A DNA stretch of 64,000 nucleotides, taken from Candidatus Peribacteria bacterium (lineage in GTDB: Bacteria > Patescibacteria > JAEDAM01 > Absconditabacterales > Absconditicoccaceae). Position numbers and translations under genes: made by a program. The DNA lies in assembly GCA_031280545.1 (NCBI GenBank), contig JAITGP010000041.1, forward strand, positions 1 to 64,000, read 5' to 3'. Numbering within the stretch: the stretch's first letter is position 1; each line of letters begins with the position of its first letter. The notes beneath the pieces are model-generated. The model saw nothing but the letters and a program-made list of their open reading frames with translations, was not told the DNA's origin and ran no database searches. Of this stretch, positions 2,557-17,978 are shown one piece after another.

Positions 2557-3999
2557 TTATCCTAACTGTTTTTTTAGCTCTTCTTGTGCGATTTGAGGAT
2601 TTACTTTCCCTCCTGTTTTTTTCATTACTTGTCCGACGAAGAAGCCGATCGTGGTTTCTTTCCCGCCTTTGTACTGTGCTACGATTGCAGGGCTGGTGTC
2701 GAGGACTTCTTTTACGATCGTTGCGAGTTCGTTATCGTCTATTGTGGGAGTGTCGAATCCTTTTTCTTTTACTATTTCTGTTATGGATTTCTTTGTGAGT
2801 AGGAGTTCATCGAAAACGATTTTCAACTGGTTATCAAGCAGTTTTTTCTCCTGTTCTACTTTCAAAAAGTCTTCAAAAGGCTGAGCAAAATCTGAGAGAA
2901 ACGCTTCGATAGATATTCAACTTTTTAATACCGGTCAGGAAATCCATTTCGCAATCGTTTTTGGGTCAAAGCCTTTTTCCACTTCCGCAAAAAAGAAGTC
3001 AAAAAGGGATTTATCTTGCAAGAGGGCATTGATATATTCTTTATGAAATCCGAATTTTTCCTTGCATGTCTTGATATAATGGTAAGGAATATATAATAAT
3101 TCTCTGGAATTTTCTGTTTTTAAATTCTCTGAAATTCTCAGTACAGGCATATCAGGTTCAGGAAAATAACGATAATCCTCAGCGGATTCTTTGCTTCTCA
3201 TCGCAAACGAACTTCCTTTCGTATCTTCCCATCTTCTGCTTTCCTGCAAGACTTTTTCTCAGCTTTCTAAAAGCTTTTTTTGTCTCTGATATTCTCCCTC
3301 CACAGCTCTTTTCATCGCTCCAAAGGTATTGATATTCTTCATCTCAACTTTCGTCCCCAACGGATCGCTCGCGTTTCTTCTGATGGAAATATTCACATCC
3401 ACTCTCATCTGCCCTTTCTCTAAATCGGCGTCTCCTAATCCGTTCCATCTTGCGATTCTCTGGATTTCTTTAGTATATTCCACGGCTTCTTCGGCGGAAG
3501 TGAAATCGGGATCGGTGACAATTTCCAAGAGGGGAGTTCCCGCACGGTTGAAATCAAGCAGACTTTTCCCTTCCTTCCCTGTTCCCTCGTGGATCATCTT
3601 CGCAGTGTCACATTCCAAGTGGGCTTCGTGGATTTTCACGGTTCTCTCTTCCTCATAATTATTTACAAAATAATGCACTTCTCCGTCCTTGATAATCGGG
3701 TGATAAAACTGCGTAATCTGAAATCCCATCGGCAAATCAGGATAGAAATAGTTTTTCCTATCAAAAGAGCTAAGAGGCTGAATATTGGCATTGATAGCGT
3801 GTCCAAAAAGGATTGCCTTATCTACGACTTCCTGACTGAGAAGCGGAAGTGCTCCAGGTTGTCAGGTGCAGACGGGACAGATGTTGGTGTTGGGCGGAGT
3901 GTTGAAGTCCTGCTCGTTTTTACAGCGACAGAAGATTTTAGTCTGGCTGTTGAGCTTGAGGTGGATTTCAAGTCCGATAGTGATGAGGTAGTCGGTCAT
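2557..3999 (-). CDS. gatB: Asp-tRNA(Asn)/Glu-tRNA(Gln) amidotransferase subunit B
   Basis: GatB binds the misacylated tRNA in the GatCAB complex that makes Gln-tRNA(Gln) and Asn-tRNA(Asn) by transamidation. The 480-residue frame begins [13 protein letters not shown] and contains [29 protein letters not shown] and VDVNISIRR, all typical of GatB. The YqeY-like tail domain runs from about residue 375 to the end. Several in-frame TGA codons are needed as glycine, for example in the CPVCTG stretch, after LLES (3256-3258) and twice near 2911-2934. The start at 3999 matches other GatB proteins exactly. gatA and gatC are not in the window. A near copy of the first 45 coding bases is found at 6870-6914. 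Confidence 0.95.
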
Positions 4000-4031: not shown

Positions 4032-4706
4032 TTAGTCTTTGAAACAGCGAACCGCACGACCAGCATCATTATAAGTATAACTTTGAGGATATACAGATCA
4101 TGGATCAACATGCAGGGCATATGCGTAAATTTCAGAGTTTGCTGGACTAGATGACCAATATGTTCCTATGGATCCTTGAGTATCCATAAATTCCTGAATA
4201 CTAAATCCAAAATAATAATTCTTTTCCCCACCCAAAGATAATTTTAGATCATTTTGAAAATCTTCTAGTTTTATGATTCCGTTATTCATATCTCGCCAAT
4301 AACTATCTTTGTTAATAAAATCACTTCACTTAGAAATAAGGTAATCATCAAGTAAGTCCTGCCATTCTTCTTTACTTGGTAAATGATAACCCGTTGGACA
4401 TACCTCTTGAGCCTCTTTCCAAGTGTAATAATTCCCATATGATTTTTCTCCTGTTCCTACTTCATCTGCTCCAACATTACAAGGTTGTATTGTGTATTTC
4501 CCAATGTTGATATCTGGACTATCACATCAAAGAGAACTAGAGGCCATTGTTTCTTGCTGTAATTTTTCTCCTGTCTGTATTTCCATTTCTTGAACTGGTG
4601 GCTGTGAAACATCCTCCTTCGTAAAAGGACACTTCGTCCATATCAGAAAAGCTCCTACTCCAAGTACAATGATAGCACAAATGGTAATCAGAATTTTTTT
4701 CTTCAT
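4032..4706 (-). CDS. FISUMP-domain protein (Fibrobacter succinogenes major paralogous domain)
   Basis: This 224-residue protein has an N-terminal hydrophobic segment (MKKKILITICAIIVLGVGA), a short Pro/Gln/Glu linker, and a C-terminal domain. The domain has the FISUMP pattern: GYHLPSKEEWQDL near residue 115, GTYWSSS near residue 180 and a terminal AVRCF. The fold belongs with C-type-lectin-like or FGE-like surface domains. It is probably exported and membrane-anchored. At least one TGA (in HVDPGS, about 4096) is read as glycine. It resembles the DGR target at 7200-8357 in overall domain type but has no copy of the template repeat, so I see no sign that it is diversified. The stop lies 33 bases before gatB. 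Confidence 0.8.
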
Positions 4707-4738
4707 GAGTTGATAGGATAGAAGGGTAAAAGGAATGG

Positions 4739-5782
4739 TTATTCTAAATTATCTTCAATATCTAAATGCTGATCTAAGTATTGTTTTAGTTCAGCTTTAT
4801 TTGGAAGATAGAGTTTGTACTCTTTGGTGAAGATTTGCTGATTGTCTGGTAAAGTATACTGTAAAACTATATCATCTTTAACTTTACACAAGATTAATCC
4901 GATTGTCTTATTCTCTTCTAGGGATTTATACTCTTTATCATATCGATTTACATACATTTGCATTTGTCCAATGTCTTTGTAGGTGATTTTTCCTATTTTC
5001 AAATCAACCAAAATGAAGCATTTGAGAAAACGATGATAAAAGACTAAATCTACATAAAAATGTTCTTCTCCTGCGGTAAATCTCTTCTGCCTACCCACAA
5101 ATGTAAACCCTTTTCCCAGTTCTAATAAAAAATCTTCCAAATTATCAATAATTGCCTGTTCTAACTCATTTTCTGTATATTTATGGTCTTCTTTTAATCC
5201 TAAAAACTCCAAAACATAAGGGTCTTTTATTGCTCCATCTGGAGTTGTGATAAGTTGCCCCTCTTGAGCCAGTTTCATTACGCCATCTTTATCCTTGCTC
5301 AAAGCTAATCTTTCATATAAAGCACTATTAAACTGTCTTTTCAGCTCTCTCAAAGATCGCTGTTCAGCGTTAGCTTCTAATAGATAAAAGTTTCTTTCAT
5401 CACTATCTTTTACTTGGCTAAGAAAAACGAAATGCGATCGACTGAGAGATTTTTGAGACACTGTCTCAAAATTTGGAAAAGTTAGGTACACATTCCTCAT
5501 AAAATTTAAACTGAAATATGAAAACCCTTTTCAGAATTGCTCAGTCAGCTTATCTGAAATATGCTGTAAAAGCCCAGTTCCATATTCGGCTCTTTCTTCT
5601 CCCTTCTGTTCGTATTCTACTATGTGTCTTCCGATGCTTCGATACATTTCCGTCATTGAAGAATTTACCTGTTTGATAAAATTCTGCTTTGATTGCTGGA
5701 TAATCTGAGAAATCTGTTCAATGAGCGTTGAATAGTGAGCAGGAGTTCAGGAGGTAGTTGAGGGATTAGAGTTTATAGTCAT
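4739..5782 (-). CDS. YhcG/DUF1016 family PD-(D/E)XK nuclease, copy 1
   Basis: The 347-residue protein has the two domains of the YhcG family. The DUF1016 N-terminal helical domain covers residues 1-150 (including MYRSIGRHIVEYEQKGEERA), and the PD-(D/E)XK nuclease-like domain covers about 190-330. Candidate catalytic residues lie in FYVDLVFYHR and LVDLKIGK, and the family word GFTFVGRQKR precedes them. TGA codons near 5523 (EQFGKGF) and 5746 (TTSGTPA) are read as glycine, and without them the N-terminal domain is lost. The family is usually found on mobile or defence-associated DNA. Its substrate is not known to me. A paralogue follows directly upstream at 5816-6841. Confidence 0.85.
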
Positions 5783-5815
5783 ATTGGTGGTATGGGATTG
5801 TAAAAGGCTGAATTA

Positions 5816-6841
5816 TTATTCTGGTAAGGCTTCAAATCCTGCTAATCTTTTGATGATTTCACTTTCACTGGGTAAGTATTTCGCATATTCAGTTGGTAAT
5901 TCGTGATAACTATTGTAAGTTGCCACTCCCATTGGGTCTTTGGCTTGTTCTAACATATATTCTACCTCTGTTCTATTTTTGTCTCTACAAATTACTACTC
6001 AGATTGTGGGATTGTGCTGTTCCAATTTTACTTGCTTATTCACTAATTGCATATACATTTGCACTTGTCCAATATCTTTAGGGCTAAATTCTCTAGCTTT
6101 GAGTTCAAAAACAACATAACAATTCAGCTTGAAATTGAAGAATAACAAATCAATAAAATACTCCTTTTCATCAAGGGTCAGCCTATATTGCCTTCCTACA
6201 AAAGCGAAACTTCCATCCATATCTTGTAAAAACTTAACCATATTGGTAATAATGCTGTTTTCGAGTTCCTTTTCAGAAAGTGGCAAGTCGGGAGTAAGGA
6301 GTTCAATATTGTAATCATCCAAAAACTCTCGTGCAACCTGTGCTTTCAATGCTGTGGGAACCGTGGCTTCAAAATTATTCTGAGCGAGTAAATGTTTCTC
6401 AAAATACTGATGTTCTAATTTTTCCAGTAAGTCCAATTTCGACCAGCCTTGTTCTTTTGTTTTTCTGAGATAGAATTCAATCTGTTTTTCATTTTTGCAT
6501 TTCTCCAAAATCAGACAATTTTGCACCCATCCAATTTCTGCAACCAGTGGTTGCAGTTTTATATGTTCTGCATAAAATTCATAAAAATGCTTCATATATC
6601 TGATATTCCTCGTAGAAAAACCACGAATACCGGGGCATTCAGTCTGTAAATCTTTTGAAAGCTGCTCTACAACGGAATTCCCCCATTCTGCATTTTGAAT
6701 TTTTTCGCTTACAGACTTCCCAATTTCTCGATACAATAAAACGGTTTGCTTACTTACTGCTTTAAGCATTTCATATCTCGCTGACTGGATTTTGGTGAGA
6801 ATATCTTGGAGAAAGGTTTGGTAATTGATGAGATGGGACAT
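5816..6841 (-). CDS. YhcG/DUF1016 family PD-(D/E)XK nuclease, copy 2
   Basis: This 341-residue paralogue of the neighbouring gene has the N-terminal DUF1016 domain (residues 1-165, with LLYREIGKSVSEKI and STRNIRYMKHFYEFY) and the nuclease domain (about 200-310, with FAFVGRQYRL, YFIDLLFFN and VVFELKAREF). The TGA at 5999-6001 is read as glycine in NPTIGVVICRDKN and restores the usual C-terminal section that ends at a TAA (5816-5818). The two copies differ substantially, so they are not a recent duplication. They are 33 bases apart and on the same strand, probably one transcript. The position between gatB and a gatB 5' remnant suggests that this block was inserted. Confidence 0.87.
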
Positions 6842-6869
6842 TAGGATTGTACTAGTAAAGATTAAAGGT

Positions 6870-6914
6870 ATTGAGTTTGGGGTGGATTTCGAGTCCGATG
6901 GTGATGAGGTAGTC
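6870..6914 (-). pseudogene. Remnant copy of the gatB 5' end
   Basis: On the minus strand this stretch encodes [15 protein letters not shown], which equals the N terminus of GatB ([15 protein letters not shown]) with one change. At DNA level about 40 of 45 positions agree with 3953-3997. There is no ATG at the corresponding place and the similarity ends abruptly on both sides, so it is a fragment and not a gene. It lies 2.9 kb from the real gatB start, on the far side of the FISUMP and YhcG genes. The rest of the gap to 7199 holds nothing else I can support. Confidence 0.8.
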
Positions 6915-7199
6915 CCTTCGTTCGCTAACTATCAGAAGGAAAAAACTGACTAAAAAATACGATTTCCCCTTAAAAATGCAACGGGAAGAAAAAATTAAAA
7001 AAATTAGAGAAAAAGGACGGAAAGAGTAAGAAACTCTGAATAACTCGTAAGAGATCTCTTTCGTCACATTCTGAGCGACTTGGTTGCCTGTCCTCAATAG
7101 AGGAAGTGAATGCATGTAGAAAAAGTGATAAAATATTTGCAATTTTCGATAAAAATACATATACTTAATAAAAGTTTTTAACTTCTTATAAATGAACTG

Positions 7200-8357
7200 A
7201 TGAAAAAATGGATGATTACGCTTGGGGTAGTAGTGGTTTTGGCAGGATGTATCGCTTTGTATGCCAAAGATACCTCAGGAAAAAGAGATGCACTTTTGGT
7301 GGCTGCTTGTAATGCTGCGACTGCTGGAGAGCTGAGATATGGTTCTGGCTGTGCAGAGTATTGTGACGGTACTAATTGGATCCCAAAATTTGGGTGTTCT
7401 GCTACGACTCAGACTGTAGCTTGTAGTAGTAAACCTGATAATGCCGTCTATAATGGATCTGGGCTTGTCACTTCTACCCGAAATGGGACGGAATGGACTC
7501 CTTCTTTGGTTGCGAGTTATAGTGCGACGAGTTCAGGTAATACTTGTACTTTTCATTGTGATACTGACGCTATTTATGATTCTTTGCTTAATCTCTGTAG
7601 AGTGGAGAGAGCAGACTGTGAAACGACTCCATTGGGTGGGGCGATAGGTGCGGCTTTGGCAGCTAGTGGATATGTGATTGCAGGCTGTAATGTTGGAGCA
7701 TTGACGGGATGGAATCCATCAACTATGACTCCGACTATTGTTAATACTACTACTTCTGCTACGTATGGATACCATTTTCAATGGGGAAATAATTTCGGAT
7801 TTGATGCGAGACCGGGGGCAAGTGTGGTTTTGTCTAATATGGATGAGTATGTAGATACTCTTAATTATGGACCACTTAGTGGAGGATATTATAGTAGAGA
7901 TATCTTTGTAAGAGTGACGGATGGAGCAAATAGAAATGATCGATCTTTGGATCAAAATGATGGACTTTGGGGAAATGCTGGATCTGAATTGGAACGCCAA
8001 TGACCGTGTGCTACAGGATGGCATCTTCCTACCCATACCGAGTGGATTGGACTCTTTACTACCTATGCACGTATAAAAGGGAATACTACCTATAATGGAA
8101 CTAACGCTACTTGGCAGTCTGGTATGAATATGATAGACACGGTGAATGACTTATTGATACCCTTAGCCGGTAACCGTAATCGTACGTCTGGTGGTCTGTT
8201 CAGTCAGGGAGCCTACGCCCTCTACTGGGCATCTACACCTAATGGTACTAATGCCTACTACCTGTACTTCTATTCGACCAATCTCCACCCGCAGCCCAGC
8301 AACAATCGTGCGATCGGCTTCTCGGTTCGTTGTTTCCAGAACTCTCTAACCCCGTAG
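7200..8357 (+). CDS. DGR target: diversified surface lipoprotein with FISUMP/C-type-lectin-like C terminus
   Basis: The 385-residue protein starts with MKKWMITLGVVVVLAGC, a signal peptide with an LAGC lipobox, so it is probably a lipoprotein on the cell surface. A Cys-rich middle region (residues 37-150) and a Gly/Asn/Thr-rich section lead to a FISUMP-type domain that begins near GWHLPTHTEWIGL (residue 272). The TGA at 8001-8003 is read as glycine and is required to reach this domain. The last 60 residues are the variable repeat: 8161-8346 is a copy of the template repeat at 11833-12018 with changes only at template adenines. It ends in FSVRCFQ plus a TAG at 8355-8357. In known DGRs such C-terminal C-type-lectin folds present variable residues on a ligand-binding face. 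The ligand here is unknown. Confidence 0.9.
8161..8346 (+). repeat. DGR variable repeat (VR)
   Basis: Aligned without gaps to TR 11833-12018 (offset 3672). Sixteen substitutions are found at 8199, 8200, 8203, 8214, 8220, 8221, 8246, 8259, 8265, 8271, 8286, 8295, 8296, 8299, 8314 and 8327. In all sixteen the TR base is A (ten to T, four to C, two to G). Eleven residues change, all at template Asn codons, and two changes are silent. The only non-adenine difference is TR C to VR A at 8340, in the 3' invariant end that should act as the initiation-of-homing region. Confidence 0.97.
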
Positions 8358-8393
8358 GGGTTCCCCCCCTGAGGGGGTTGGGGGGTCAGAGAG
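8342..8393. promoter_or_regulatory. Nested hairpins just downstream of VR
   Basis: Directly after VR come AACCCC-GTA-GGGGTT (8348-8362) and CCCCC-TGA-GGGGG (8365-8377), enclosed by an imperfect outer stem that pairs 8342-8353 with 8382-8393 (11 of 12). In the Bordetella phage DGR a hairpin or cruciform downstream of the homing site is needed for efficient target recognition. The same role here is inference. The hairpins resemble the REP-like elements nearby, so they may instead be one more such repeat. Confidence 0.65.
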
Positions 8394-8454
8394 GAAAAGT
8401 CCTTTGAAGGGTGATGTTGGTCGAAGGATAAAGTTCGTAGTTTTTGAGCCAATC

Positions 8455-8483
8455 CCCTCTCGGAGTAGAGGGCGATTTTTTTT
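8455..8483 (+). terminator. Terminator of the DGR target gene
   Basis: CCCTCT pairs with AGAGGG (8455-8460 and 8467-8472) and an eight-T run follows a few bases later. It lies 98 bases after the stop codon. Confidence 0.6.
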
Positions 8484-8502
8484 GTTTGGGTTTTTGTTGT
8501 TC

Positions 8503-8803
8503 GGACCCCGCAGTACTGCGGGATCCCCACGTGGTATGTTGGATTGTGTGTTGGATTGTGTGTTGGATTGTGTGTTGGGTGGGTATTGGATGGTATGGTA
8601 ATATTTGTGTGTGGACGCCCTGATGGGGCGTCCGAATGTGGATTCAAAATGATGGATTGTGTTGTGTGGTTATTTTGTTGTTCGGACGTGCCAACAGCAC
8701 GTCCCTACGTGGTATGTTGGATTGTATGGTGTGTGATGTGGTGTTGGATGTGGTATTGGATGGTATGGTAATATTTGTGTGGGGACGCCCTGATGGGGCG
8801 TCC
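8503..8803. repeat. REP-like hairpin array, part 1
   Basis: Several palindromic units alternate with GT-rich spacers. CCCGCAGTACTGCGGG lies at 8507-8522, GGACGCCC/GGGCGTCC stems at 8613-8633 and 8783-8803, and GGACGTGC/GCACGTCC at 8684-8704. The 12-mer TTGGATTGTGTG is repeated three times at 8539-8574. Spacers share words such as TGGTATGGTAATATTTGTGT. The layout resembles bacterial REP/BIME arrays, and a RAYT transposase lies at 10201-10881. No coding gene is supported in 8358-9072. Confidence 0.85.
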
Positions 8804-8895
8804 GAATGTGAATCCAAAATGGTGGTTTGTGTTGTGTGACTCCTATGGGGTCTTGAATATTGTATCTGAAAGTCCCAGAAGGACTATATTTGTAG

Positions 8896-9048
8896 GTCGG
8901 GGATTTATCCCCGACAATAAGAAAAAGTCGAAAAAGTATTGCAATTGTAAAAAAAATGAGTATACTGTATATGAACAAGGAGATAGTGGGTGGTATGTTC
9001 TACGGGATATACACATGTCCTATCCGTAGCCCCACACTCGTTGTGGGG
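8896..9048. repeat. Further isolated hairpins
   Basis: Three more perfect stems occur: GTCGGGG/CCCCGAC at 8896-8915, a stem around ACGGATA-type halves at 9002-9027, and CCCCACA/TGTGGGG at 9030-9048 followed by a T-rich run. The last could stop transcription from upstream before the NYN gene. Confidence 0.6.
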
Positions 9049-9072
9049 TGTTTGTTTTTACTCTGTTTTGTG

Positions 9073-9798
9073 ATGATGAGTGATATTGCTATGCAATCTC
9101 AATGACCTATAAAAGTATGTGTATATATTGATGGATTTAATGTATTGCATGCTATCAAGCAACAGTATGGTAAAAAATATTATCGATTAGATTATGGTGC
9201 TTTAGCACAAAATTTACTCTGACATAATGAGAAACTAGTACAAGTATATTATTTTACAGCATATTTTACATCCGATACACAGGGAGTGTATCATCATAAA
9301 AATTATATCAATGCGTTGCATATAGTAGGTGTACAAACTATTCTAGGAAAATTTCAGAAAATCAATAGAAGTTTTTCAAAAAGACGAACAAAAACCGTAT
9401 CTATCATTTGGAAAAATATTATAAAGCTGTTCCCCTATCAGGTACAACAGTATTTTTTGCCTTATTCTTTATGCTATAAGACCTATGAAGAGAAAAGAAC
9501 TGATGTAAATATTGCGACACGAATACTAATGGATGGAGTAAATAATTTGTATGATAAGGCTATTATTATTACGGGAGATAGTGATATTACCCCAGCGATT
9601 GAAGCAATCAAAAAGAGAGATGCGAGTAAATATTTTGTTTGTGTTTCCCCTAAACAGTGAAAAGGAATGACCATTGCTAATGCTTGTCACGAAAGTAGAT
9701 ATTTAACGGAAGAAATGTTGGAGAATGCACAGCTGCCTAGTTCTGTTATTTCTAGGTCATGAAAACATAGCTACTCTAAACCTGTAGAGTGGGAATAA
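9073..9798 (+). CDS. NYN domain protein (PIN-like putative ribonuclease)
   Basis: The 241-residue protein belongs to the NYN/LabA-DUF88 family of PIN-fold nucleases. The first conserved acidic motif is VYIDGFNVLHA near residue 16. Further motifs are EEKRTDVNIATRILMDGV around residue 140 and IITGDSDITPAIEAIKKR around residue 160, which supply the Asp residues that bind metal in this fold. TGA codons in LLGHNEK (9221), KQGKGM (9658) and RSGKHS (9760) are read as glycine. ATG at 9073 or 9076 is the likely start; no strong ribosome binding site is seen. The gene lies inside the REP/RAYT region, so it may have moved with it. Similar NYN proteins are common in CPR genomes; the RNA substrate is unknown. 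Confidence 0.85.
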
Positions 9799-9874
9799 TC
9801 TTTCTTGGAGTGCTAGAGCGAGTGTGTGTGGGAAAAAGTTGAAAAAGATATTGCAATTTGAAATATTTGTGTGG

Positions 9875-10132
9875 GGATGCCCTGATGGGGTGTCCGAATG
9901 TGGATTCAAAATTATTGTGTGATGTGTTGGTATGGTAATATTTGTGTGGGGACGCCCTGATGGGGCGTCCGAATGTGAATCCAAAATGGTGGATTCGGAT
10001 GTGTGGTTATTTTGTTGTTCGGATTTTTGTTGTTTGGACCCTGCAGTACTGCGGGATCCCCACGGTGTGGTGTTGGATGTGGTGTTGGATGGTATGGTAA
10101 TATTTATGTGGGGACGCCCTGATGGGGCGTCC
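9875..10132. repeat. REP-like hairpin array, part 2
   Basis: GGACGCCC/GGGCGTCC-type hairpins occur at 9875-9895 (with compensated changes, GGATGCCC/GGGTGTCC), 9950-9970 and 10112-10132. The CCTGCAGTACTGCGGG variant is near 10040-10054. Each is followed by GAATGTG and an AATCCAAAAT-like tail, as in part 1. The compensated stem changes argue that the structure is what is conserved. Confidence 0.85.
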
Positions 10133-10200
10133 GAATGTGAATTCAAAATAGTGGATTGTATGGTGGATTGTGTGTTGGATTGTGCGGTAATGTTTGTATA

Positions 10201-10881
10201 TTATATTTCTTCCCAAAATTTACCTTCATTTCGTTTTCTGGGATTTTGTTGAATATAAAATTTAATGTTATTGTATTCCTTTTCATTACGGACGATATGA
10301 TCATGATAACGAGATTGCCACCCAAAATTAATTGGGTGATTTTGTGCGTATTTGGTAACGTTTCCTTTGAAGGTGTTGACGATAATTCACAAGGAAGGTC
10401 ATTTATATATGTCGTTGTGATTTGTTTCATTATTTGGATGTGTGGTTATTATTTTTCATCAATTTTGATGGTGTATTATTTTTCATCAATTCGGACGTGC
10501 CAATAGCACGTCCTTACGTGGTGTGTTGGATTGTATGGTAATGTTTGTGTAGGGACGCCCTGATGGGGCGTCCGAATGCGAATTCAAAATTAATGCGTCT
10601 GAATGAGTATCGTATTTTGCCAACCATTCATCCATTCCCAATAATATATGTACGTGATTTGGCATCACGATCCATTCATGAACCTTTACCGTTTTCCTTT
10701 CATTCAGATTTTTTATTTCTTGTGCACAATATTTTCCCAGATCGTTCAATACCATTTCCTTATTTTTGATTTCACCAAAAAAATGTTCTCTGTTTCTGGT
10801 ACAAATGGTTATAAAATATATTCCTTCACTAGTGTAATCATATCGTGATGCACGAGGTGAGCTACGGCGAGGCAATTCCAT
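10201..10881 (-). CDS. REP-associated tyrosine transposase (RAYT, Y1_Tnp family) with in-frame REP insert
   Basis: The 226-residue protein starts like other RAYTs (RRSSPRASRYDYTSEGIYFITI). It has the HUH-type motif in MPNHVHILL near residue 76 and ends with the conserved block FGWQSRYHDHIVRNEKEYNN and FYIQQNPRKR. RAYTs nick and mobilise or maintain REP hairpins. Between the two conserved blocks, residues about 85-150 are encoded by REP DNA itself (units at 10493-10513 and 10553-10573). The frame stays open there only because two pairs of adjacent TGA codons (10483-10488 and near 10456), and further TGAs, are read as glycine. The insert probably sits in a surface loop or the gene is already inactive. 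It is surrounded by the array it presumably spread. Confidence 0.85.
10493..10573. repeat. REP-like pair inside the RAYT gene
   Basis: A GGACGTGC/GCACGTCC hairpin (10493-10513) and a GGACGCCC/GGGCGTCC hairpin (10553-10573) are separated by the usual TGTTGGATTGTATGGTAATG-like spacer. The pair is identical in layout to 8684-8803 and lies within coding sequence. Confidence 0.85.
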
Positions 10882-10947
10882 GAAAAAAGAAAAGAGGATA
10901 AAAGATTAACTATGGTCCCGTGTATGACATCCCTTGGATAAGAGAAA

Positions 10948-11208
10948 TTAAGCATAAGCAGATTCTTTATTCTCAAACAAAGTATACTGAAGACGGAATT
11001 TTTTGATTACTGCCTGTGGATAATTTCCGTCATCTTTTTTATGTAAGTCCAAGGGTTCTTGGGGAAAAATGATTTTCATATAAGCTATAATAGCAAATAA
11101 ATCTGTGGAAAAGCATAACGGTTTATTTTTGAGTTGCAAGAGAATGTTTTTTTTTCTTAGAAATCTCTTGTAATTTGTTCGGAAAAGATTATTTTTTCTA
11201 TGAAGCAC
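10948..11208 (-). CDS. Small hypothetical protein, doubtful
   Basis: An open frame of 86 codons begins with GTG at 11208; an internal ATG at 11079 would give 43 residues. The later part (MKIIFPQEPLDLHKKDDGN and onwards) has a protein-like composition, but I recognise no family. It lies between RAYT and the MutS-like gene and is divergent from the latter. It could be a decayed fragment or chance. Confidence 0.25.
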   Translation of the reverse strand: MLHRKNNLFRTNYKRFLRKKNILLQLKNKPLCFSTDLFAIIAYMKIIFPQEPLDLHKKDDGNYPQAVIKKFRLQYTLFENKESAYA

Positions 11209-11240
11209 AAAAATAAAAATTTATTACAAACAAAAACACC

Positions 11241-11681
11241 ATGAAAACAAACTTTGACTGTTGGCTAGAACTCAAGCGTTTAGTAGAAAATAAAGAAAAG
11301 ATTCTGCTTTTTTATTCGGGAGTTTTTTATAAAACCTTTGAATGAGATGCAGAATTTTTGTCTGCTCTTTTTTGATTCCAAGTTGTAAAAAAGGGTGGAT
11401 ATGAAGTAATTGGATTTCCTGTTAGCGGAGAGGATAAATATCTTCACGAGCTCAGACAAGCAGGATATTCTTATCAACTCCTCAAAAATACCGAGAATGA
11501 ACTTATCTTGATCGATGAATTTGAGGGAGATATTCCTTTGAGGTATGATAGAGAAAAAGTAGTTTTTCGGCAAGAAAAACCCAAAAAAGCTGATCCTTCT
11601 CCTCCAAATCAGTCGGAATTTAAGGCGTTCCTGCAGGATTTATGAGTTTTGGTGCAAACCTATATAGAGGAGAAAAACTAA
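11241..11681 (+). CDS. MutS domain I-like protein, DGR accessory
   Basis: This 146-residue protein looks like an isolated MutS domain I, the mismatch-reading domain. ILLFYSGVFYKTFEGDAEFL at residues 21-40 corresponds to the MutS LLFYRMGDFYELF region, and YEVIGFPVSGEDKYL with LRQAGYSYQLL corresponds to the following GVPYHA and VKKGYKVAICEQ section. The Phe-X-Glu pair that MutS uses to wedge mismatches appears here as Phe29-Tyr30-Lys31, so the Glu is replaced. No ATPase, clamp or core domains are present. TGA codons in FEGDA, LFGFQ and DLGVL are read as glycine. It directly precedes the TR, Avd and RT genes on the same strand. As I recall, MutS-like accessory genes have been described in some DGRs. 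A role in handling template/target mismatches is inference. Confidence 0.8.
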
Positions 11682-11832
11682 TCTTTTGGGCGAGAGTCTA
11701 CTATTGCTACGGCAGGGTAGAGCGTGTCCATTCAAAGAGAGTTCAGTGATTCACTGTCCCGCTGTACAGCAGGATAGTAGTAAAAGATGTATATACAGGG
11801 ATGTATCTGCACAAATCAAGTAATCACTTTCA

Positions 11833-12018
11833 CCTTAGCCGGTAACCGTAATCGTACGTCTGGTGGTCTGAACAATCAGGGAGCCAACGCCAACTACTGG
11901 GCATCTACACCTAATGGAACTAATGCCTACAACCTGAACTTCAATTCGACCAATCTCAACCCGCAGAACAACAACAATCGTGCGAACGGCTTCTCGGTAC
12001 GTTGTTTCCAGCACTCTC
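11833..12018 (+). ncRNA. DGR template repeat (TR) and its RNA
   Basis: This is the adenine-rich donor copy of the VR at 8161-8346. Its reading frame would give many Asn codons (AAC/AAT) at the sites that vary in VR. It lies between the MutS-like gene and avd, about 120 bases upstream of avd, the usual TR place in DGR cassettes. Mutating AAY codons at A cannot create TAA, TAG or TGA, so the template is built to diversify without stops. A hairpin with stem CAGTGA/TCACTG at 11744-11756 and a 10-base palindrome GCTGTACAGC at 11761-11770 precede it. The TR RNA ends are not visible. Confidence 0.95.
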
Positions 12019-12023
12019 AATTT

Positions 12024-12078
12024 AGAGGAAAGGTAAAAGTCCAAAAGCTAAAGATTTGTGAGCTGAATCCTTTCCTCT
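12024..12078 (+). other. 10-bp stem-loop immediately 3' of TR
   Basis: AGAGGAAAGG (12024-12033) pairs perfectly with CCTTTCCTCT (12069-12078) across a 35-base loop. In the studied Bordetella DGR, the RNA just 3' of TR is bound by RT-Avd and primes cDNA synthesis. This stem is a candidate for the equivalent element. Confidence 0.6.
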
Positions 12079-12100
12079 TTTATTTTTTCTTTTAAATCTT

Positions 12101-12454
12101 ATGACTACTTACGATCATTTACCTGTCTATAAAGCGAGTTATGATTTTTTAATTAAAATATTTGTGACGGTTAAAAATTTTTCTAAAGAATATAAGTATA
12201 CTATTGGCGAGCAGTTGCAAAAAGAAGCAGTAGGTCTGGTCTCTAGTATTTGTACTGCTAATCGTAAACTAGATAAAACTGAAATTCTGATTCTTTCCAA
12301 AGAAAAGGTAGAACTCCTTACGCTCTATTTGAGAATCTGTAGTGATATGAAACTTATCTCTCTCAAGAAACACGTAGAGCTTACGCTGATCCTTGAAGAT
12401 ATTTCAAAACAGCTTACTGATTGGAGTAATTGAAGGAAAAGATCTGCTTCTTAG
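12101..12454 (+). CDS. avd: Avd-like four-helix bundle protein (DGR accessory variability determinant)
   Basis: The 117-residue protein is helical throughout, beginning MTTYDHLPVYKASYDFLIKI and with YTIGEQLQKEAVGLVSSI in the second helix, the pattern of the four-helix bundle/S23-like family to which Avd belongs. Avd forms a barrel-like pentamer, binds the DGR reverse transcriptase and nucleic acid, and is needed for mutagenic cDNA synthesis. The TGA at 12431-12433 is read as glycine and adds a short basic tail (GRKRSAS). It lies between TR and RT with 27 bases to the RT start, the normal order in DGR operons. The leader is pyrimidine-rich. Confidence 0.88.
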
Positions 12455-12481
12455 TTTTTTATTTTTAGTTTCTTGGCTTTT

Positions 12482-13708
12482 ATGTCTTTGTTATATGATC
12501 TTTTCGACTCCTACTATGATGCGAGAACCAACAAGAGAAATACTATTAATCAGCTAGCTTTTGAGTTTGATTTAGAAAAAAATCTCTTACAGCTTCATCA
12601 GGACTTAGTTGATGATTGCTATACTATAGGGCCAAGTATCCACTTTATACAGTTTCATCCTGTTAAACGTGAAATTTTTGCAGGAAATTTCCGTGATAGA
12701 GTTATTCATCATTTGATTTATAATTATCTCAACCCGCTGTGTGAAAAGACTTTTATTTATGATAGTTATAGTTGCAGGGTAAAGAAGGGTACCATTCAGG
12801 GTATAAAAAGAATCCACAAATTTATTAGGAGTTGTAGTCAAAATTATACTATAGATTGTTATATTTTAAAATTGGACATTCAGGGATATTTTATGTCGAT
12901 CAATAAAGACATTCTTTATCACAAAATAGAGGATATGTTTACTGAGAGATCTGATGAATTTCATCATCCTGTGTCTCTGGAGCGATTTCTGCAGCTTATT
13001 CATAAAGTAATTTATCACGATCCCACCAAAGATTCCTTTTTTAAAGGAAATGAATGAGACTATGAAGGGTTGCCTCCTTCCAAAAGTCTTTTTTTTACCA
13101 AGCCAAATTGTGGTCTCCCTATAGGAAATCTTACCAGTCAGCTTTTTTCAAATATTTATCTTCATGATTTAGATGTCTATATTACAAAGGTGTTGGGACT
13201 TTCTTATTATGGGCGTTATGTAGATGATTTTGTGATTGTACATAGGGATAAAGCCTATTTACAGAAATTAGTTAATGAAATCTGAGGCTATCTACAAGAT
13301 CATCTTTCTTTAACCTTACATCCCAAAAAAGTATATCTGCAACATTATTCTAAAGGAGTGCTTTTTTTAGGACAAATGATAAAACCTTATAGAAGGTATA
13401 TTAGAAAAAGGACGTTTGGATATTTTTATACTAAGCTCAATGAACTCACTACTCAGCTTTCACAAATCGAGGATTCTCTTGACTTACAGCAGGTGCAAAA
13501 GCATTTCCTAGCTGTAATCAACTCCTATTTAGGATTTTTCAAGGGATGTAAAAGTTATCAGCAAAGAAAACAGATCATAGAAAAATACGTGCATCCTAGT
13601 TTTCGAGAGTATTTTTCTTGTAATGAATCCTATACAAAAATTACTCGCTTACATATTATGAATCAAAAATCGAATAACGGTAGTAGTAAATGAGTCAATT
13701 CTTGTTAG
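12482..13708 (+). CDS. DGR reverse transcriptase
   Basis: The 408-residue enzyme copies TR RNA into cDNA with errors at adenines. Reverse transcriptase motifs are in order. VKREIFAGNFRDRVIHHLI is near residue 65, KLDIQGYFMSIN (motif A) near 130, and LPIGNLTSQLFSNIYL near 212-227. The catalytic YVDDF is at 246-250, and VLFLGQMIKPY follows near 292. The GNLTSQ form of motif 4 is characteristic of DGR and related RTs, which lack the maturase and endonuclease domains of group II intron RTs. TGA at 13055, 13283 and 13691 are read as glycine. ATG at 12482 is preferred over a TTG nine bases earlier. It follows avd and ends the cassette; no clear terminator follows. Confidence 0.95.
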
Positions 13709-13778
13709 ATTTTTGCAAAATTTTCATTTTGGATTACAATAGATTGAAAAAGTTTTTTTTATTCTCATATGTAATAAA

Positions 13779-16700
13779 ATGAAAAAAGTACTTGTACCAG
13801 CCTTCCTTTCATTAGGGGTTTTGCTCCTAGGGATAGTGTACCTCTCTACTCCAGAGATAGAAGAGGTGAATTTTAATTCTCCTGAGCTCTGAGAAGAGCT
13901 CTTCGTGGAATTCCCTGCTGACGAATCAGCCGTGGATGAATCAACTGTGGATGAATCAACAGAAGTTGGAGTACCAACGGAGGTTGGTGGTCTCATAACA
14001 ATTGGGGACCCGACCGAGGAAGAAACTCCTACAGAAGTGGAAACACCCGCTGAACCTGAAACACCAGCAAAACCTGAGGTTCCTGCAAAAGTGGAAACAC
14101 CTGTAACGGTTGAAGAACCTCTGCCTACTGAAGCATCTTCAGTACCTGAATCAGTACCTGAATTAGTAGAACCTATAGAACTAGGAGACGCTGTTTCAAC
14201 TTTTTCTTTTGGTACGAATATGTCACGAAACTGGACAACTTCTGCTTCTAATAAACAAAAATGTATCGTAATTGGACGTACTGAACGAAATGGAAGTGCC
14301 TCCGTTAGAGATATCATCATTGATTGGGGAGAAGGAGCTGCACAGTCTTTGAGTGGGATAGGGGTGTATACTTCTGCAGGTGCACAGACGTACAATAAAG
14401 TTTGTCATACTTATGCTTCCGCTAAAGAATACGGAGTGCATATTACTACTCCTGATAGAGTAGCTTATCTGGATCTTAGCTCTCAAAATGTAAATGCTTT
14501 CGAGGCTGGGACTTGGGGGACTAATCTGATTTATCTTTCTTTAGATGATAATGATCTTTATTCTCTTGCTGGAGGAGCTTTTCGTGGACTAACAAAATTG
14601 GAAAAACTTTATCTCTCAAATAATGCTTTTTCTGCTCTGCCACCTGATCTTTTCCAAGGACTAACAATGCTGAAAGTTATCGAACTTTCTCGAAATAATT
14701 TGACAGCACTGCCTGATACTATTTTTAATGGTTTGACTGCGTTAGTAGATTTAGATTTATCTTATAATGCCCTTGGAGCCAATAGTATCTCTGCTGCTCT
14801 TCTCACTAATCTCAATAACTTGGAGATTGTAGCTCTGGCAGGGAATGGCTTGTCTGTTCTTCCTTCCGCTTTTGTTTCTGGACGTACTAAATTGACTGAT
14901 CTTTATTTCTATGAAAATAATTTGCTAGAGCTTCCTTCTTTGGCAGGGCTTACTAAACTTCGTGTGGTATCAGCTTTTGATACAGCTTTAGATACGTCTG
15001 GATATAACGCTTTCCTCAATACCTTTAAAACGATTCCTACAGCTACAGGTGCTTTATATGCTTCTCCAGCTTCTTATGGTGGGTGTGTAGCCAATGCTTC
15101 TCTAGGAATCGCAGGACATACTACTCTCACTACTGTTCCAAATATTTGGGTAGTAAATGATGCTGGATTAGAGAGCTGTGTTATCTCTGGAAGTCTTGCT
15201 TATAGTCCAGATACTACTGTTTGGACTAACAGCGGAGTAGTTGCCACTCTGACCTTAGATACCACAGGAACCGTAAGCTCAGCAGGTTGGACTCCATCTG
15301 GAGCAGGAACCATCTTTACAAAAACTTATATTTCCAATACTGGTGAAACGGTGAATTTTGTATCTCCCTCTGGGGCTACAGGTTCTGCTTCTGTAGTCAT
15401 TAGTAGTATTATTAATTCTGGCTCTCTCGGAGCTATAGTTTCTTATACTCCAGCTCAAAATGCAAGTGGAGATATTACGGTGACTGTCACGCTTAATACT
15501 ACAGGAGGAGTTGCTCCTATTCATTGGAGTGCTACAGGTGCTTATGCTTACACAAGAATCTATACGACAACAACCCTTCAGTCTGAGGAAACGTTTTCTG
15601 ATGTCGCTGGAAATACTATCGAAACACAGATAAATCTGACGATCGATAGGGATGCTCCAGTTGCCACAAATGTGTCTTATTCTCCACATACTGTGACCAA
15701 TAGTGGAGTGACTGTTACGTTGACGACCAATGAGGTAGTGGTTAAACCTTCTACACGATCATGACCAAGTACAGGAACCGTCTTTACAAAAGTCTATAAC
15801 ACGAATACGACAGGAATCGTTAGTTTCTTTGATCTCGTAGGAAATAGTGGAAGTACGGGAATCAATATTACTCGAATAGATACGAATGTTGTGACAGGAA
15901 GTGTAAGTTATTCTGTTCCTACTCCGACAAATGGTGATGTATTGGCTACGGTTTCATTTGTAAAGACAGGAGTAGTGGTGACTTCTACTGGAGGTACCAG
16001 TCATCTCTTTACGGGAGATGGAACTTGGACCTTTACTTTTCAGGATCCAGCAGGAAATACGGGAAGTGCTATAGCTACTGTAAGCGGAATCGATAAAATA
16101 GCTCCTACAGCTACCGTAATAAACTACTCAACAACGAATCCCACCAATGGAAGCGTGACTGTCACGTTAACTACAAGTGAAAATGTTTCACCGATAGCAG
16201 GATGGACAGGAAACACAGGAACAAGTTTTACAAAAGTATATGATACGAATGCAGTTGAAACAATCTTCTTTTATGACCTCGTAGGAAATCAAGGATATAC
16301 AGGAATTAGTATTCAGAATATAACAAACGATAAACCGATTGGATTAGTTTCCTATAGTCCTAATAGTGCCACGAGTGGAAATGTGACTGCAATCATTCAA
16401 GTGAATAAAGCATTAGCATCTACGCCAACAGGACGAAATGCTACAGGCACCAATGCTTACTATAAAACGTATGCAAGTAATACGGGTGAAACACTACTCT
16501 TAACTGATACAGCAGGAAATACGGGAAATGTGGATGTGACTATTGCACGAATAGATACCACAAATCCTACAGCCATTACGGTAAGTTATGATCCGAATTC
16601 AGCAACTAATGGAAATGTGACGGCAACTTTGACTATCTCTGAGCCGATAGATACCCCAATCGGATGGGCGAAAACAGATGCTACTACCTATACAAAAATC

Positions 16701-17978
16701 TTCTTTGAAAATACAGGGTATACACAGACATTCTATGACCTCGTGGGAAATGAAGGTTCTACGGGAATTGTTATTGATCGGATTAGCACTTCTGCAATTA
16801 CGGGAGAAATTAGCTATTCTACGACTGGAGCTACTAGTGGTAATGTTATTGCTACACTGACTACTTCCGAAACGGTAAATCCTATTGTAGGATGGGATGG
16901 AACGACAGGTACTACCTTTACTAAAACATTTATCTCTAACGCTAATGGTCATGTAGTTTTCCAAAATGCTCTTGGTACACAAGGATCTGCGACTTATGAT
17001 ATTGATTGGATTGATACGACTGCACCAAGTGCTTCTGTATTCTATACCCCTTCTGCAAATCCACAATGACCAGTTCTTGTGACTATCACTTTGAGCGAGA
17101 CGGGAAATATTCCATGATGGACAGATACTGGAGATCAGAAAACTTTCACAAAAAGCTATGCTTCTAATACGACAGAGACGATTACTTTTTATGACTCCCT
17201 TGGAAATGCAGGTAGCATCCAAGTACAAGTTTCTGGAATTACTCAGCCTTCCTCTGGTGGAGGTGGAGGAGGAAGCTCTGCTTCCAGGGACGTTTGTCCA
17301 AAGGGAGACTATACCGCTAGTTATTATGATGGAGAATGTGGAATTTCTCCCGACCAGAAAGAAGAAATCAAAAACGAGATATTATGAGAACTAGGACTTA
17401 CTGATTCTGACCAGTCAGGTTCTACTACTGGAGAATCAGAGCATAATGAATCTGATCTTACCTCTGATAAGGAAATGCTTCTTTCTTATGAACGAGCTAA
17501 AGAATACGGTATCACTACTGCACCAACCTATGAATCTGCAAGACTCTCTGATACTATTATTAGAGGAGAAATGGCAAAAATGATCTCAACCTATGCAATA
17601 AAACTTCTCAATAAAACCCCAGATAAGGAAAAACGAGAATGTATCCAATTCCAAGATCTTGCTCAAGCGGGTGGTGATCTTCAACCCTATGTCATTCAAT
17701 CTTGCCAACTTGGTCTGATGGGAATGAACGGTGATGGTATTGGTGTTCAAGAAAACTTTTTCCCTACTAGGACGATCACGAGAGCGGAAGTAGGTACCCT
17801 ATTATCTAGGCTCCTTCGAGGAACAAAATATGCTACTCAGCAAGGAGATGAAACCTATTATGGTAGACATCTACAGGCACTCAAAAAAGCCGGTATTATG
17901 AACTTTATTTCTGATCCTGATATGCTAGAGCTCAGAGGAAATGTCTTCTTGATGCTTTGGAGGATGATTGTGGACTAA
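13779..17978 (+). CDS. Giant surface protein: LRR, Ig-like repeats, SLH-like C terminus
   Basis: The 1399-residue protein opens with a signal/anchor segment (MKKVLVPAFLSLGVLLLGIV) and a Pro/Glu/Val/Thr-rich spacer (residues 45-140) built of short repeats. A leucine-rich repeat domain follows from about 225 to 405, with words such as LTKLEKLYLSNNAFSALP. Six or more bacterial Ig-like repeats cover about 470-1155, recognisable by the recurring GxVTVTLTTxE and TFTKVYxxN patterns. A Gly/Ser linker (GGGGGGSS) leads to a C-terminal SLH-like region at 1233-1399 (EYGITTAPTYESARLSD, RAEVGTLLSRLL, ALKKAGIM) that probably anchors it to the cell wall. Frequent TGA codons in the Ig region are read as glycine. 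It probably mediates attachment to other cells. It follows the DGR on the same strand but has no VR. Confidence 0.85.

Follow-up and report, generated by a model that had tools for sequence, protein, structure and literature searches.

Two questions are raised by positions 7200-13708 of a 64,000-nucleotide stretch of contig JAITGP010000041.1 from a Candidatus Peribacteria bacterium (the whole stretch is called the window here): whether the region holds a complete diversity-generating retroelement (DGR), and what fills the space in front of its template repeat (TR). We found that the DGR is real, of a known kind and ordinary as a DGR. The interesting part is the leader RNA of the TR. The space between the gene for a MutS domain I protein (MSL) and the TR is predicted to encode a covarying structured RNA that abuts the TR 5' edge. 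This conserved leader merits follow-up, with the caution that part of it is already in Rfam as RT-7. When read with genetic code 25, in which UGA is glycine (Gly), the DGR has a target gene with the variable repeat (VR), MSL, TR, Avd and reverse transcriptase (RT), all on the plus strand and in the order that a prediction made from the letters of the window (the original prediction) had given:

7200..8357, plus strand: target gene, 385 amino acids (code 25), with an N-terminal hydrophobic anchor or signal, a C-terminal FISUMP (Fib_succ_major)-type domain containing the VR, and a UGA at codon 268
8161..8346, plus strand: VR, from repeat comparison with the TR
11241..11681, plus strand: MSL, a free-standing MutS domain I protein (PF01624) of 146 amino acids, with three in-frame UGAs and F-x-K at the F-x-E motif
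11690..11834, plus strand: structured RNA leader of the TR, RT-7-like (RF03028 match), filling the space between MSL and TR
11833..12018, plus strand: TR, from repeat comparison with the VR
12101..12454, plus strand: Avd, the accessory variability determinant (PF22296)
12473..13708, plus strand: RT, 411 amino acids from TTG (408 from ATG at 12482), with motifs LPIGNLTSQ and YVDD and three in-frame UGAs

The only Rfam match in 6800-14000 is RT-7, with 41.2 bits and an E-value of 3.1e-7 (2.6e-8 on a shorter stretch). Since this score does not reach the RT-7 gathering score of 116.8, the leader is called RT-7-like and not a member of RT-7. Related loci were collected by a search of genome contigs that used the RT aligned with 14 relatives, and the best 80 of at least 584 candidates were kept (L001-L080). 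RT-7 matches, also below gathering, immediately precede the TR in L002, L008 and L047; a further one has the equivalent position in L143, directly before TR-like sequence. The leader shares the overall helices of RT-7, and the matches in the window, L002, L008 and L047 end at the TR edge. However, all five matches are below gathering, and RT-7 matched none of L001, L003, L026 and L031 (E 0.01) or L144-L148 (E 0.1). L143, together with L118, represents G600, the closest genome locus found. Between G600 and the window, the leader is 74% and the TR 82% identical over alignment columns, whereas the 3' flank is only 30% identical; the proteins are 66% (RT), 63% (MSL) and 62% (Avd) identical.

A model named R1 was built from the window and L143 only, its structure being taken from the RT-7 alignment and the window sequence. 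The 97 sources searched were the window, L001-L080, L143-L148 and 10 of the 30 short loci L113-L142; of the other 20 short loci, eight duplicate stretches that were already covered and 12 were not used. R1 matched 32 of the 97 sources at E <0.02, its two training sequences included, and also gave an antisense palindrome match in the window at E 0.51. R2, a sequence-only model, found six sources, two of them training sources, so that the structure carries most of the signal. Among R1 copies with a located TR, 22 of 26 end 10 nt or less from the TR start, and the rest end 23, 55, 57 and 131 nt before it. In the R1 alignment, 94.5% of the cells are paired, and the covariation score is 0.619, compared with 0.172 for shuffled and at most 0.114 for slid controls.

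The R1 hits were used to build a further model, R3, which found 64 copies in 58 of the 97 sources, 26 of the 58 being new. It matched L001, L003, L026, L031 and, except L145, L144-L148, where RT-7 had not. The offset of a leader is measured to the nearest start of an adenine-biased repeat, which favours small offsets; on this measure a TR was located for 53 copies, of which 44 end no more than 12 nt from the TR 5' edge (21 of 27 outside the training set), and the nine outliers lie 23 to 179 nt before the nearest located TR, except one that lies 370 nt after it. Another 11 copies are without a located TR. The covariation score of the 64 copies is 0.817, against 0.206 for shuffled ones. In the Parabacteroides loci L066 (8836-9945) and L067 (8406-9631), which have arrays of three located TRs each, a leader copy directly precedes five of the six TRs. 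The exception is the third TR of L066, for which the nearest copy is 179 nt upstream; a fourth copy in L067 has no located TR. Carriers of the leader include Patescibacteria, Bacteroidota, Pseudomonadota, Omnitrophota, Neomarinimicrobiota, Fibrobacter and Treponema. As controls, 29 MutS-gene loci gave one R1 match at E 0.054 and no R3 match, and R3 gave no match in pieces of BPP-1 and of a Shewanella phage and a single weak one (47 nt, E 0.018) in a piece of a Bacteroides phage.

Several points weigh against a conserved leader structure. Pairs changed on both sides did not exceed those in shuffles (88 of 500, for the 64 copies), and the leader alignments are biased towards the model structure, because they were fitted to it. 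The fold of the single sequence is modest, with z-scores of -2.49 for 11682-11836 and -1.07 for 11690-11834. R3 had no match at E 0.01 in 39 of the 97 sources. The TR 3' flanks are about as structured as the leaders (z below -2 in 15 of 25 and 17 of 25, respectively; upstream control, 5 of 25), and a structure confined to the TR 5' flank was rejected because the 3' flanks score alike.

What does the leader do? In the DGR of the Bordetella phage BPP-1, the 3' spacer recruits RT-Avd and primes the cDNA, whose synthesis is ended by a motif within avd, 5' of the TR (PMC12875486). Since the leader sits where a stop of the BPP-1 type is expected, our best guess among its possible roles, at slightly better than even chances, is that it marks the 5' limit of the template RNA. 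Because the TR 3' flanks are structured too, a 3' spacer of the BPP-1 kind is probably present as well. RT-Avd would bind the TR RNA together with the leader, the RT would copy the TR with errors at adenines, and copying would stop at the 5' leader. The cDNA would then overwrite the VR and re-draw surface residues of the putative C-type-lectin-like domain of the target. MSL may assist the heteroduplex step between cDNA and VR as a DNA-binding, not mismatch-reading, domain. The distance between VR and TR would be tolerated because the cDNA would act as a diffusible donor.

The leader may instead be an msr-like domain for recognition or priming that recruits RT and Avd, and not a stop of reverse transcription. 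The retron msr lies 5' of msd, and the leader is likewise structured and precedes the template. The presence of its own leader directly upstream of five of the six located TRs in L066 and L067 would also suit an RT-binding domain. We consider this rather unlikely, because in PMC12875486 recruitment and priming in BPP-1 are assigned to the 3' spacer and the end of copying to the 5' motif, and structure in the TR 3' flanks is seen here too. In the likely transcript the leader is upstream of Avd and RT, so that it could also act in cis as an attenuator that regulates the genes downstream and is not involved in retrohoming. This is improbable: the leader 3' end is tied to the TR edge, not to a gene start, and the TR copies in the two multi-TR loci mostly have their own leader.

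The DGR itself is seen in the repeats. TR and VR are 186 bp each and have 17 differences, 16 of them at TR adenines, which make up 52 of the 186 positions (hypergeometric P 2.8e-9). The adenines are changed to T (10), C (4) and G (2), and the 17th difference is C/A at TR position 12012, near the 3' end. Among the adenine-changed codons, 11 of 13 are AAC or AAT in the TR. The first 33 bp of the repeat are conserved and occur at two sites only in the 64 kb, the TR and the VR, and blastn of the TR against the window gave no further match below E 0.1. The idea that code 25 shields the TR against stops was rejected, because none of the 61 TR codons can turn into a stop under either code. We regard it as very probable that the region is a complete DGR of a Gracilibacteria-type genome with UGA read as Gly, the steps of its activity being deduced ones, and the cassette has apparently been used recently.

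A recently silenced relic would fit with the RAYT-like and REP-like sequences that stand between the target and the cassette (described below). We find a relic quite improbable, because TR and VR agree at 133 of 134 non-adenine TR positions and because target, MSL, Avd and RT are all open when genes are re-called with code 25. Two points count against the reading as a complete DGR: its activity is deduced from sequence, and a structure model of the target (pLDDT 43.7) did not confirm the fold and was not used.

The RT and Avd exceed their Pfam cut-offs: PF00078 (RVT_1) scores 62.4 bits (cut-off 29.6) and PF22296 scores 53.4 bits (cut-off 40). The best NCBIfam match of the RT is group_II_RT_mat, below threshold at 103 bits (cut-off 300), so that one might think of a group II intron or retron RT next to a chance repeat. 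However, the best match among solved structures is 8ub7 'Reverse transcriptase' (E 1e-26), which we take to be the BPP-1 DGR RT, and the best group II maturase reaches 1.4e-6. Motifs were examined in the best 120 of 7706 RT relatives: the LPIGNLTSQ class of motif 4 is found in all 120 and QGxxxSQ in none, and the searched YxDD form is in 119. No group II intron RNA was matched by Rfam in 6800-14000 at E 0.1, adenine-biased repeat pairs occur at 61 of the 80 related loci, and the adenine bias of TR and VR is decisive. A group II or retron RT can thus practically be dismissed, in agreement with the original prediction.

The MSL profile (PF01624) scores 36.4 bits (cut-off 20.6). MutS structures led its fold search, with a weak model (pLDDT 56.8), a best E-value of 3.1e-3 and none at 0.001. 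The mismatch-reading motif of MutS is Phe-x-Glu. In MSL of the window and four relatives Phe-x-Lys is aligned with FYE of MSH6 (2o8b), which suggests that MSL binds DNA without reading mismatches; a weak homologue in L003 has F-I-R there. Among the 80 loci, L001 alone has a strong MSL match; L061, L070 and L003 have weak ones (E 1e-4 to 1e-3). A search of the phylum with the MSL alignment matched 43 of 379 genomes, and all but G001 matched in frames of about 830-900 amino acids, which are therefore probably whole MutS. PMC10053308 lists MSL, under this Pfam number, among the known DGR accessories and cites Wu et al. 2018.

The target falls just short of its profiles, with 32.6 bits for PF09603 (cut-off 33.9) and 41.4 for TIGR02145 (cut-off 41.65). 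It aligns with the VR-bearing proteins of 21 chosen related DGRs. In a search of the protein collection for homologues, only the truncated protein of the window itself was returned (P0124, listed as window-encoded), which has 267 amino acids, ends at UGA 268 and is without the VR. The target had been called a lipoprotein; a lipobox-like LAGC is present, but the homologue in L143 (42% identical) is without that cysteine, which makes the label uncertain. By eye, a second FISUMP-like protein is encoded at 4032-4706 on the minus strand (CPTGYHLP, AVRCF). It was rejected as a second current target, because its best local match to the TR has an E-value of only 0.047 under very permissive settings. 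As its DNA is not significantly TR-like, it is perhaps a paralogue or a retired target. A 44-bp copy (91%) of the gatB 5' end lies upstream of the target (6871-6914 and 3950-3993), which looks like the trace of an insertion that brought in the FISUMP-like gene and two DUF1016/YhcG nuclease genes (4032-6841) and caused a duplication.

Reading of UGA as Gly is supported by several alignments. In-frame UGAs occur in 12 of the 13 genes checked, EF-Tu having none. In gatB, three of four UGAs (46, 247 and 361) align with Gly of GatB 3h0l; UGA 45 of MSL is an invariant Gly in five aligned sequences; and UGA 268 of the target stands opposite Gly in 11 of the 21 relatives, two of these being themselves read with code 25. 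On the other side, gatB UGA 355 aligns with Asn of 3h0l, the single UGA of IF-2 (484) aligns with His in an E. coli-type chain, MSL UGAs 35 and 135 are not conserved Gly, and the three RT UGAs are in variable columns, none of them a Gly column. A tRNA-Gly(UCA) is not among the four tRNAs found in the window. The claim that the genes are intact only when UGA is Gly holds for the target (UGA at codon 268 of 385), MSL (three UGAs) and RT (three UGAs), which are broken under code 11, but Avd is nearly intact, its sole UGA being codon 111 of 117. It had been suggested that standard gene calling could miss such a system. The target is indeed truncated in the protein collection, but 32 of the 120 listed RT relatives (within P0004-P0118) have Trp at 4-10 of 10 conserved Gly columns; these are probably UGA-Gly genes translated with UGA as Trp, and they were found nevertheless.

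The combination of a DGR and this code had been thought special, which is not supported. Among the 80 loci, the RT gene has at least two in-frame UGAs in L001 and L003 (15 each), L031 (5) and L026 (2), and one in L016, L027 and L061; the Gracilibacteria loci L001, L003 and L026 are further or identical examples of the combination. Of the 288 genomes in the class to which the genome of L001 belongs, 35 gave an RT match at E 1e-40; these are RT matches, and the weakest may include non-DGR RTs. At least two UGAs and no UAA or UAG are present in 21 of the 35, no stop in 11, and UAA or UAG in three. At least 10 of the 21 have a repeat pair beside the RT (G001, G002, G519, G590, G535, G490, G571, G554, G422 and G558). 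Thus, DGRs in UGA-Gly genomes are frequent, and the genetic code is incidental to the DGR. Neither UGA-Gly DGRs nor a structured leader 5' of the TR were mentioned in the parts of papers that a literature search reached, and we claim priority for neither.

The separation of VR and TR had also been considered special. From VR start to TR start there are 3672 bp, with a gap of 3486 bp, which exceeds the gap in all 61 measured loci, where the distance of the nearest pair is 371-3263 bp (median 799); a second repeat pair in L077 spans about 5.9 kb. The gap is long, but it is explained by its contents, and remote targets and transposons beside DGRs of the Candidate Phyla Radiation have been described (PMC8144416 and PMC10907252). 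The gap and the flanks contain the following features:

8348..8362, plus strand: stem-loop AACCCC-GTA-GGGGTT just 3' of the VR, spanning the target stop codon
8613, 8783, 9875, 9950, 10112 and 10553 (span 8613..10573), plus strand: six hairpin repeats like repetitive extragenic palindromic (REP) sequences, from a repeat search
8956..9798, plus strand: open reading frame (ORF) of an NYN-domain protein, domain residues 53-246
10201..10881, minus strand: ORF like a REP-associated tyrosine transposase (RAYT), PF01797 29.4 bits (cut-off 23), NF047646 64.9 bits (cut-off 80)
13779..17978, plus strand: leucine-rich repeat (LRR) protein directly downstream of the RT, a flanking gene and not part of the DGR

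The six REP-like hairpins are the sole matches within three mismatches in the window, and all lie between VR and TR. The RAYT-like ORF, which has a REP hairpin inside its reading frame and six UGAs, may be decayed. The NYN protein was rejected as the 'MutS-like' accessory of the original prediction, because the MutS_I match lies at 11241-11681. The stem-loop at 8348-8362 fits the homing-aiding stem-loop of BPP-1; its fold is not exceptional (z -1.53, 18 of 200 shuffles as good), and a similar one was not seen 3' of the TR. In L143 the order is MSL, leader, TR, Avd, RT, a large surface protein and the target, which is cut by the contig end. By eye, a gene similar to that of the LRR protein is also downstream of the RT there. 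Unlike in the window, the target homologue of G600 lies beyond the RT and the large surface-protein gene, more than 6 kb from the TR, and the contig ends before any VR. The arrangement of these loci indicates that the cassette stays together while the target location changes.

Two known systems place the DGR of the window. BPP-1 (L149, part of AY029185.2) shares the VR at the 3' end of the target gene (mtd) and the location of VR, TR and brt on a single strand. The gene annotated as Bbp7, which lies between mtd and the TR, is presumably Avd. BPP-1 differs in its order (target, Avd, TR, RT), in having no MSL annotated, in an RT 28.9% identical to that of the window over 74% of the query, and in its 4.7-kb locus, where R3 finds no leader. 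BPP-1 has a stem-loop 3' of its VR, to which the hairpin at 8348-8362 may correspond, and its TR 5' flank is avd coding sequence (PMC12875486). The locus L001 of a Gracilibacteria metagenome-assembled genome (JAQUZB010000014.1) shares the order target, MSL, TR, Avd and RT, the FISUMP-like VR domain, an RT with in-frame UGAs (15 in L001) and a leader matched by both R1 and R3. It differs in a VR-TR offset of 964 bp, a pilin-like target N-terminus and a leader that ends 51-57 nt before the TR. By eye, the DGR targets at L001 5550-6989 and L003 6882-8657 have N-termini like those of type IV pilins (FTLVELIVVITILAIL).

In conclusion, the complete set of DGR parts probably works, or did so until recently, in a lineage whose genes are broken by standard gene calls. 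We tentatively suggest, as a possibility with somewhat less than even chances, that in many cellular lineages the template RNAs of DGRs have a structured 5' domain in common, that this domain is ancient and only partly covered by RT-7, and that it sets the stop of the RT, moves with the TR as a unit on duplication, and marks TRs even when the VR is remote or off the contig. With the leader model, TRs can be searched for by structure when their VR is far away or absent from the contig. The leader is a concrete and testable element for the question of how the mutagenic cDNA gets its 5' end in DGRs other than BPP-1.

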